In this document: piece after piece, positions 26,389 to 39,049 of the stretch
Layout: each line of letters starts with the position of its first letter
Position numbering within the stretch: the stretch's first letter is position 1
Source: Pseudomonadota bacterium
GTDB lineage: Bacteria > Pseudomonadota > Gammaproteobacteria > Burkholderiales > Burkholderiaceae_C
Assembly (NCBI GenBank): GCA_018240985.1
Contig: JAFEER010000042.1
Coordinates: 1 to 48,326 of the forward strand
Length of the DNA: 48,326 nt
Direction of reading: 5' to 3'
Made by a program: the position numbers and the translations under genes
The notes under the pieces: generated by a model
What the model was told of the DNA's origin: nothing
The model's database searches: none
What the model saw: the letters and a program-made list of their open reading frames with translations, nothing else

Positions 26389-26539
26389 CCTGATTGGCGA
26401 CATATTTCAGATCAACCCGCGGGCCCTCACCCCCACCCTCTCCCAGAGGGAGAGGGAGAAATACCGGCGCAACCGATCGCCCTCGCCCCTTTGGGGAGAG
26501 GGAGGGGTGAGGGGCTTCTGCGGTATGTGCATAGTCAGG
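26389..26539. repeat. MITE-like element, class B core, with perfect 8-bp target duplication (151 bp)
   Basis: Left end CCTGATTGGCGACATATTTC (20 bases shown) and the inverted right end are 23-bp terminal repeats. The flanks are identical octamers ATGTTTTT at 26381-26388 and 26540-26547. The core carries CCCTCTCCCAGAGGGAGAGG and a second inverted palindrome around CCCTTTGGGG. It is almost the same sequence as the copy inside xseA. Confidence 0.9.
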
Positions 26540-30991: not shown

Positions 30992-31141
30992 CCTGATTAG
31001 GGACATATCTCAGAGAGTGCGCTACCTTAATCATCCCGTCATTCCGGCGAAGGCCGGAATCCAGACGTCGCGCACTGGTCACATCGGTAGATTCCGGCTT
31101 TCGCCGGAATGACGGCGATCTGAGAAATTTGCCTAATCAGG
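30992..31141. repeat. MITE-like element, class C core, with perfect 8-bp target duplication (150 bp)
   Basis: The 23-bp ends (left starts CCTGATTAGGGACATATC) are inverted repeats. The flanking octamers CAAGCATG at 30984-30991 and 31142-31149 are identical. The core is a different hairpin: CGTCATTCCGGCGAAGGCC and its inverted copy with one mismatch. It lies 21 bp after hrpA. Confidence 0.9.
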
Positions 31142-37552: not shown

Positions 37553-39049
37553 ATGTTTGAGCATGCAGATGCAGTCCCGGCGCCGCGTATCTGGGAAGTT
37601 GGCGCGCTATGCCGCGCCATTGCTGATGCCTTGCAGGCCCGCTTCAACCCGGTAGCGGTGCGCGGCGAGATCACGGGCTTTTCGCGCGCGTCCAGCGGGC
37701 ATTGCTACTTCACGCTCAAGGACGGACAGGGGCAGCTGCGCTGCGCCATGTTCAGGCGCGCCGCCGGCCAGCTCGACTTCATGCCGCGCGATGGCGAGCT
37801 GGTGGAGGTGCAGGGCCAGCTGGGCGTGTACGAGGCGCGCGGCGACCTGCAGCTGATCGTTGAAAGCATGCGCCGCGCGGGGCAGGGCGCGCTGTTCGAG
37901 CAGTTCCTGCGCTTGAAGGCGCAGCTGCAGGCCGAGGGCCTGTTCGACCCCGCGCGCAAGCGGCCGCTGCCCGCCATGCCGCGCGGCATCGGCCTGGTCA
38001 CCTCGCCGGGCGCGGCAGCCCTGCACGACGTGGTGACGGCGCTGCGCCGGCGCGTGCCGCATATCCCGGTGCTGCTGGTGCCGGCCCTGGTGCAGGGCGC
38101 GCAGGCGCCGGCGTCCATCGTCGATGCACTATCAAAACTGTATCTGCTGGCGCAAGGTGGCCGGGCGCGAGAGGGTGGTTTGCCTGATTATGCTCATTCC
38201 TCAGATCAAGCCGCGGGCCCTCACCCCCACCCTCTCCCAAAGGGAGAGGGAGAAATACCGGCGCCACCGATCGCCCTCGCCCCTTTGGGGAGAGGGAGGG
38301 GTGAGGGGCCTCAGCAGGATGTACATAGTCAGGGTGGTTTGAACTTGAGTGCCGACGCACCGCCGCCGATCGACGTCATCCTGCTGGTGCGCGGCGGCGG
38401 CTCCATCGAAGACCTCTGGGCCTTCAACGACGAGCGCGTGGCGCGCACCATCGTGCAAAGCCCGGTGCCCCTGGTCAGCGGCGTGGGGCACGAGACCGAC
38501 TTCACCATCGCCGACTTCTGCGCCGACCTGCGCGCGCCCACGCCCACCGCCGCTGCCGAGCTGGTCAACGCGCCGCGCACGCAGTGGCTGGGCGCGCTGG
38601 ATCTGTTGGCCGCTCGCCTGCAGGACGGCGTGCAGCGCCAGATCGACCTGCGGCTGCAAAGGCTGGACCAGGCCGCGCAGCGCCTGGGCCGCCCCTCCGG
38701 CCTGGTGGCGCGACAACAGCTGCGCCTAGCCGGCCTGGCCCAGCGCATGCGCCATGGTGTGCTACTGAAAACGCAGCGAATTGCGCAAGCGCAACAAGCG
38801 CTGCAGGGCAATTTCACCGTGAACATGCAGCGCGCGCTTGCGCAACATGCGCAAACGCTGGAGCGCGCCGCCCTGCGCCTGGAGCTGCTCAACCCCCAGC
38901 TCGTGCTGCAGCGCGGCTACGCCCTGTTGACCGATGCCGAAGGCCATGCGCTGATGCGGCCGGCCCAGGTGCGCCTTGGCGACGCCGTACATGCGCGCCT
39001 GGCCGAGGGCGAGCTTGACCTGACCGTGGCGCCGCGCCGTCTTCTGTAA
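37553..39049 (+). CDS. xseA: Exodeoxyribonuclease VII large subunit with an in-frame mobile-element insert
   Basis: This 498-residue XseA has an N-terminal OB fold (about 15-110, [20 protein letters not shown]), the catalytic domain with [18 protein letters not shown], the motif [15 protein letters not shown] and [15 protein letters not shown], and a C-terminal coiled coil. Residues about 211-263 are translated from a MITE-like element and its target duplication. Without these 53 residues the protein would be 445 residues, the usual size. The insert sits just before the strand leading to the conserved GGGS loop. ATG 37553 follows GGAG; ATG 37541 and GTG 37514 are other options. Confidence 0.93.
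38183..38333. repeat. MITE-like element, class B core, inside xseA with perfect 8-bp target duplication (151 bp)
   Basis: The 23-bp ends (left CCTGATTATGCTC..., right inverted) enclose the same core as the copy at 26389. Identical octamers GTGGTTTG flank it at 38175-38182 and 38334-38341. Element plus duplication is 159 bp, or 53 codons. The duplication is visible in the protein as GGL on both sides of the insert. Confidence 0.93.

Follow-up and report, generated by a model that had tools for sequence, protein, structure and literature searches.

The Rickettsia palindromic elements (RPEs) are short palindromic mobile repeats, about 105-150 bp long, that sit in frame in conserved protein genes (PMC10969869, PMC2229807). 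Passages of both papers describe one enzyme, Gmk, as tested, and there the RPE is tolerated; no mover of RPEs is named in these passages (PMC10969869, PMC2229807). Fusions of MITEs with genes are called 'not unusual' in the first of them, which regards RPEs as unusually frequent (PMC10969869). The target duplication of RPEs is given as '?' in Table 1 of PMC2229807.

Other MITEs have open frames that are fused in frame to host genes: ERIC/RU-1, YPAL/RU-2, the 107-bp NEMIS and QMITE (PMC2229807, PMC2759123, PMC5896051). They are described from enterobacteria, Neisseria and Coxiella, lineages other than that of the element reported here. The passages on ERIC, YPAL, NEMIS and QMITE in these three papers hold no synonymous/nonsynonymous test of an insert.

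A further described system is the triplex motif (TM), for which PMC4666352 prints the consensus CCCTCNCCCN3-6GGGNGAGGGN3GGGNGAGGG. For E. coli, this source states that the motif always lies between genes and that no association with mobile elements was found.

The open-licence PMC literature yielded no paper on the element described below, nor on an in-frame IS1595 MITE. In-frame MITEs are in themselves already known; what appears to be new is this family, along with the hosts and the likely mover.

The window is the whole stretch of DNA analysed, 48,326 nucleotides. It belongs to the source genome, labelled G000; G001 to G006 are six other genomes of the same genus. The features are:

37553..39049, plus strand: xseA, exodeoxyribonuclease VII large subunit; 498 codons with the insert counted; TIGR00237 at 418 bits in two stretches; Pfam PF02601 and PF13742
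38175..38182, plus strand: left target-site duplication GTGGTTTG, identical to the right copy
38183..38333, plus strand: IS1595-type MITE, 151 bp, ends resolved; together with one duplication copy it encodes residues 211-263
38183..38204, plus strand: left terminal inverted repeat (TIR) CCTGATTATGCTCATTCCTCAG; 1 mismatch to the genus TIR pattern; similar to the IS ends in locus L241
38218..38250, minus strand: first TM unit of the core, a by-eye fit to the consensus as printed in PMC4666352
38274..38308, plus strand: second TM unit of the core; second loop of 2 nt against 3 in the consensus as printed in PMC4666352
38312..38333, minus strand: right terminal inverted repeat CCTGACTATGTACATCCTGCTG, which differs from the TIR pattern at 2 positions; one match in the window, where shuffling expects 0
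38334..38341, plus strand: right target-site duplication GTGGTTTG, identical to the left copy
26389..26539, plus strand: second 151-bp copy of the xseA-type MITE, with duplication ATGTTTTT; outside genes by the coding test
30992..31141, plus strand: second MITE type, 150 bp; similar terminal repeats, unrelated palindromic core (GTCATTCCGGC...), duplication CAAGCATG

We put a probability of roughly 85% on an in-frame insertion of a non-autonomous IS1595-type MITE, tolerated as a selfish, largely unconstrained spacer in XseA. Such a MITE, with two triplex motifs arranged as a palindrome, would have transposed into the gene and duplicated 8 bp. The landing site would be a loop of variable length, between a helix and the strand that precedes GGGS. 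The mRNA would be read through, since 151 + 8, the usual length and the duplication together, is divisible by three and the copy has no stop in the frame that was hit. ExoVII would then carry a disordered Pro/Gly-rich loop of 53 residues, with a sequence that is itself largely unconstrained. Purifying selection would remove copies that break genes and tolerate ones like this. Translation of the insert, retained ExoVII activity and the removal of gene-breaking copies are the parts that we infer.

The element at 38183-38333 has a perfect 8-bp target duplication on either side, and the span given in the preliminary description (38175-38341) is right to the base. Its claim that the frame is kept also stands: 151 + 8 = 159 = 3 x 53, and the ORF that starts with MFEHADAV at 37553 has 498 amino acids and is open throughout. 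As it had said, GGL is present on both sides of insert residues 211-263, and the insert lies just before GGGS. The terminal repeats are found at both ends of the element (CCTGATTATG... and ...CATAGTCAGG). As RNA, the element is predicted to fold into a single long hairpin of -89.2 kcal/mol (z -7.4). An Rfam search of the whole window gave 0 matches.

The core consists of CCCTCNCCC/GGGNGAGGG units arranged as an inverted pair. By eye, one unit follows the TM consensus exactly; the other has the 2-nt second loop. The core thus fits an inverted pair of intrastrand-triplex motifs of the TM_ECO type. The difference from TM_ECO is that the TM pair of this genus is the cargo of a MITE, and lies within coding sequence.

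xseA is a DNA-repair gene, and E. coli ExoVII (8txr) is the sole PDB match of its product by sequence. From VQG to RGGGS our XseA has 100 residues. In 91 others the distance runs from 17 to 52 (median 37); of 109 loci, 92 had an ORF by motifs and 91 of these had a measurable VQG-RGGGS distance. The insert is present in 0 of 28 aligned XseA relatives, a 29th (L042) having been dropped because it had no ORF by motif, so the empty site looked for in the relatives is there. In the DNA-level comparison, all seven nearby relatives are collinear across both flanks and lack the insert; they otherwise differ at the site by a few variable loop codons. The 445 residues once put forward as the family norm agree with five of the seven nearest relatives, at 445-446 aa with starts placed alike. 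The two others measure 432 aa (cut at the contig start) and 497 aa (N-terminus untrimmed).

Could a misjoin caused by repeats have placed a MITE copy in xseA during assembly? The genome is a draft of 303 contigs that holds dozens of similar copies of the family. Such an artefact is nevertheless extremely improbable, given a perfect 8-bp duplication immediately at each end of the element and xseA flanks that are both collinear with seven relatives.

A structure prediction, one of the checks suggested beforehand, was run with AlphaFold2. From 59 sequences, the XseA model has a mean pLDDT of 83.8 and a pTM of 0.63, with pLDDT below 50 at 211-258 and 260-264, most other positions being well predicted. 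Helix 185-207 and strand 275-279 are retained. In a fold search, E. coli ExoVII 8txr comes first by E-value (6.4e-39), at a whole-chain TM-score of 0.37-0.43 and a very large full-chain rmsd, which means that the placement of domains in the model is unreliable.

Outside the insert, xseA is constrained (pN/pS 0.26). With the insert excluded, its own branch carries 52 synonymous and 40 nonsynonymous changes, and that of G003 carries 52 and 34. A single genome was seen to carry the xseA insert, too few for measuring constraint on the insert itself.

When a copy with resolved ends lands at random in a gene, its chance of being both in frame and open is 0.21. At about this chance per event, xseA alone proves little selection. 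The same chance, along with a perfect duplication that suggests youth, is what can be said for a fresh pseudogene, in which the insertion recently inactivated xseA and the frame is open by luck. This is very unlikely: the ORF has neither stop nor frameshift, the nonsynonymous share on its own branch is near that of the G003 branch, and the region was already variable in length (17-52 residues). Also, gluQRS, which carries the same element, stayed constrained between G000 and G003.

That the insert is a mobile element, as first claimed, is borne out by its structure: it has terminal inverted repeats and a target duplication, its site is empty in relatives, it belongs to a family of many copies, and there is an IS1595-family IS whose ends closely resemble its own. 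This IS was reached through the TIR pattern. It lies in G003 (L241), another species of the genus, is 1065 bp long and has similar ends and an 8-bp duplication, TAAAAATA. It encodes an IS1595-family transposase of 320 residues (PF12762 at E 4.4e-29; NF033547 at 173 bits, the cut-off being 75). The IS and the MITE share similar TIRs and the 8-bp duplication length. They differ in that the MITE has no transposase, and comparing 45 bases at either extremity shows no clear likeness past the ends. Two of the seven genomes of the genus have the transposase: in G003 it is whole, and in G006 it is present as 264 of 320 residues. Searches for its relatives in the other five found none; these include G000, a draft that is 95% complete, and recent mobility in G000 is therefore unproven. 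From the similar ends and equal duplication length, we infer that the MITE was probably mobilised in trans by a transposase of the L241 type.

In G000, at least 39 further places match the element at E <= 3e-37; this count is a lower bound, since 40 of 133 first-look candidates were scored. The core pattern gives 96 sites in the genus and is present in all seven genomes (G000 40, G003 21, G006 21, G002 10, G004 2, G001 1, G005 1); the reversed control gives 0. Among fetched loci there were 100 core matches, 63 of them with both ends recognisable, defined as a plausible length with no more than 8 mismatches in total across both 15-base ends. Five copies identical in sequence were dropped (2 loci had been fetched twice, and 3 copies recur unchanged in a second genome), which leaves 58 distinct copies with resolved ends. 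Exactly 151 bp is the length of 43 of these 58. For 56 copies, the flanking 8-mers are alike in a mean of 6.36 out of 8 bases, versus 3.37 (sd 0.20) when shuffled. The duplication is perfect in 18 of the 56 and has 7 or 8 matches in 29; perfect ones resemble CAAATTTG. The family is therefore that of a MITE: short, free of transposase, multi-copy, with TIRs, a duplication of fixed length and a partner with similar ends.

A search with the insert peptide found matches in 3 of 150 family genomes, all of this genus (in a listing without G001, G002, G003 and G006). The core peptide matched in 2 of 300 order genomes, its own and one more at a weak E of 7e-5. At the sensitivity used, the family was thus seen only in this genus, bar that one weak match.

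There is variation within the family. Loci L243, L244, L253, L254, L019 and L030 hold a subtype of 223-227 bp, with an extra palindrome within the triplex-motif core. In some loci, among them L013, L027, L089, L200 and L206, long frames stop in the first three codons of the element; its CCTGA end supplies the stop. At L171:892-1521 and L187:925-1554, both on the minus strand, an ATG and the opening residues (MYIVR and MYIAR) ahead of an ABC-transport auxiliary lipoprotein (PF03886) come from the right terminal repeat. It is possible that the MITE end serves this lipoprotein as its start codon in both loci.

The second MITE type, at 30992, starts 22 bp past a 1394-codon frame, and no recognised gene spans it. 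A minus-strand frame that overlaps it has no Pfam match. This type, with core GTCATTCCGGCGAAGGCCGGAATCC, is also on G000 contigs C194, C234 and C89 (L245-L247). As similar terminal repeats carry different palindromic cores, the MITE ends look modular.

In this genus, IS1595-type ends might be a modular mobile system that picks up different palindromes and delivers stop-poor cassettes, divisible by three, that survive in genes. They would keep supplying conserved proteins with neutral linkers, their length being under selection for frame neutrality. We consider this doubtful. Against selection on length stands the second MITE type itself, where 150 bp becomes 158, which is not divisible by three.

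The first test for copies in genes was a codon-usage test on the 56 end-resolved copies with enough flank. It placed two within genes, xseA and gluQRS, both in frame and open. This test undercounted host genes, since most of the in-frame copies consist of a core whose ends are not clear. The fetched loci hold 93 distinct cores, and 14 of these loci have the core in frame, across eight genes: xseA, gluQRS, a BaiN-like flavoprotein (TIGR00275), CobU, Hsp70-DUF3731, TrmJ, LivG-LivF and an AddA-like helicase. Peptide searches added a ninth gene, an N6/N4 DNA methyltransferase with copies in G003 and G004. The nine genes are spread over five of the seven genomes (G000, G002, G003, G004, G006).

In the seven genes besides xseA and gluQRS, the core is in frame without clearly detectable ends. 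Of the copies tested, just two have clear TIRs, that in xseA (1/0 mismatches) and that in gluQRS of G000 (1/3). They are weak in the G003 gluQRS copy (5/5), and the other tested copies are at background or barely beyond, like the TrmJ copy with 5 mismatches at its left end versus a background minimum of 6.

As for the remaining 79 of the 93 cores, 76 are not between coding flanks on the same strand, 2 are between genes and 1 has too little flank. No broken genes were found among the 93 fetched cores, with a threshold that could miss weakly coding genes. L078 and L183 were candidates for gene-breaking copies; a three-frame reading places both between neighbouring genes. The long frames that span the element in L003, L004 and L206 did not pass the coding test. 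L090, L171 and L187 had seemed to be in-frame hosts by ORF length; Pfam places the gene after the element in each, and they were left out.

The gluQRS copy is in frame in the opposite orientation to that in xseA, at a site common to two species. The site is empty in 18 of 20 aligned relatives, including G001, G004 and G005, and holds the insert in G003; G002 has a different repeat-like sequence there, also in frame. Nine of 29 fetched gluQRS loci had no ORF by motif, and there was no G006 orthologue. The TrmJ insert is in G002 only, among 9 aligned. Of 10 BaiN-like loci fetched, 8 could be aligned: G000, G003 and G006 have the insert, and the site is empty in one outgroup and in G001, G002, G004 and G005. 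The linker in Hsp70 is full in five genomes and shorter, with the frame kept, in G001 and G005. LivG and LivF are fused in G001 and G002 as well, by other linkers, so the element need not have created the fusion. The G002 linker (L303) is apparently made of several different repeats in tandem, in frame. Outside the count of nine genes, a long ORF in L392 (G003:C1:2390500-2393300) contains, in frame, a shorter and different repeat-like stretch, PSPQPSPSGRGSKTG.

Inserts that are shared between genomes can be compared. Pooled over gluQRS, BaiN-like, Hsp70, LivGF and methyltransferase, they show 66 nonsynonymous and 27 synonymous differences (n=93), a pN/pS of 0.93. Neutral expectation is 72% nonsynonymous (p 0.82). 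The pN/pS of the host codons is 0.40, and the pooled inserts differ from the hosts by Fisher p 0.001; host codons here run from stop to stop and so may include sequence upstream of the true start. The G003/G002 comparison of Hsp70 (1.75) was left out of the pool, as it is not independent. In gluQRS, over a range that is nearly gene-only, the insert has a dN/dS of 1.87 (dN 0.31, dS 0.17, from few sites) versus 0.26 elsewhere. In the GluQRS model, for which 20 sequences were used, residues 157-209 have a pLDDT below 50, and most other residues are well predicted.

Exaptation would mean that the amino-acid sequence of the insert is useful and selected, in XseA and in the other hosts. In-frame inserts do persist in at least two species in gluQRS, BaiN-like, Hsp70-DUF3731, LivGF and methyltransferase. 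Single inserts range in pN/pS from 0.43 to 1.99, and the two that look less neutral, methyltransferase (0.43) and BaiN-like (0.57), speak for it. We hold exaptation to be quite unlikely all the same, since the pooled value is indistinguishable from neutral, the gluQRS insert has a much higher dN/dS than the rest of its gene, and both the XseA and the GluQRS inserts are predicted to be disordered. Also, G001 and G005 have a shorter linker in Hsp70 with the frame kept, and something else fills the gluQRS site in G002. Of the phrase that a mobile element was 'turned into' codons, the in-frame part stands. The suggestion of adaptation does not, since the testable inserts in other genes, pooled, evolve neutrally. 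The frame is kept while the letters are largely free, which makes the insert a tolerated spacer. The constraint on the host genes suggests that the host proteins are translated with the insert and are active.

The parallel with RPEs is stronger than first claimed, since eight further genes of the genus carry this MITE or its core in frame. Both are short palindromic mobile repeats in frame within several unrelated conserved genes. What sets the present element apart is that it has clear TIRs, 8-bp duplications and empty sites, that an IS has ends similar to its own, and that its host lineage is another one, which the named XseA relatives suggest to be Comamonadaceae-like. As the host lineage differs, the element is filed as a MITE that works like an RPE, and not as an RPE; RPEs are likened to it by description. 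The best reading is that the RPE phenomenon arose independently in this genus.

Intact ends, duplications, empty sites, a similar-ended IS and old shared insertions make the arrival, tolerance and fate of such elements testable step by step. The genus offers a natural set of insertions of roughly 30-53 codons in known enzymes. A motif reported to be always intergenic in E. coli can occur inside the ORFs of conserved proteins. Rickettsia is the best-known case of palindromic elements within protein genes, and a genus that appears Comamonadaceae-like shows similar behaviour.
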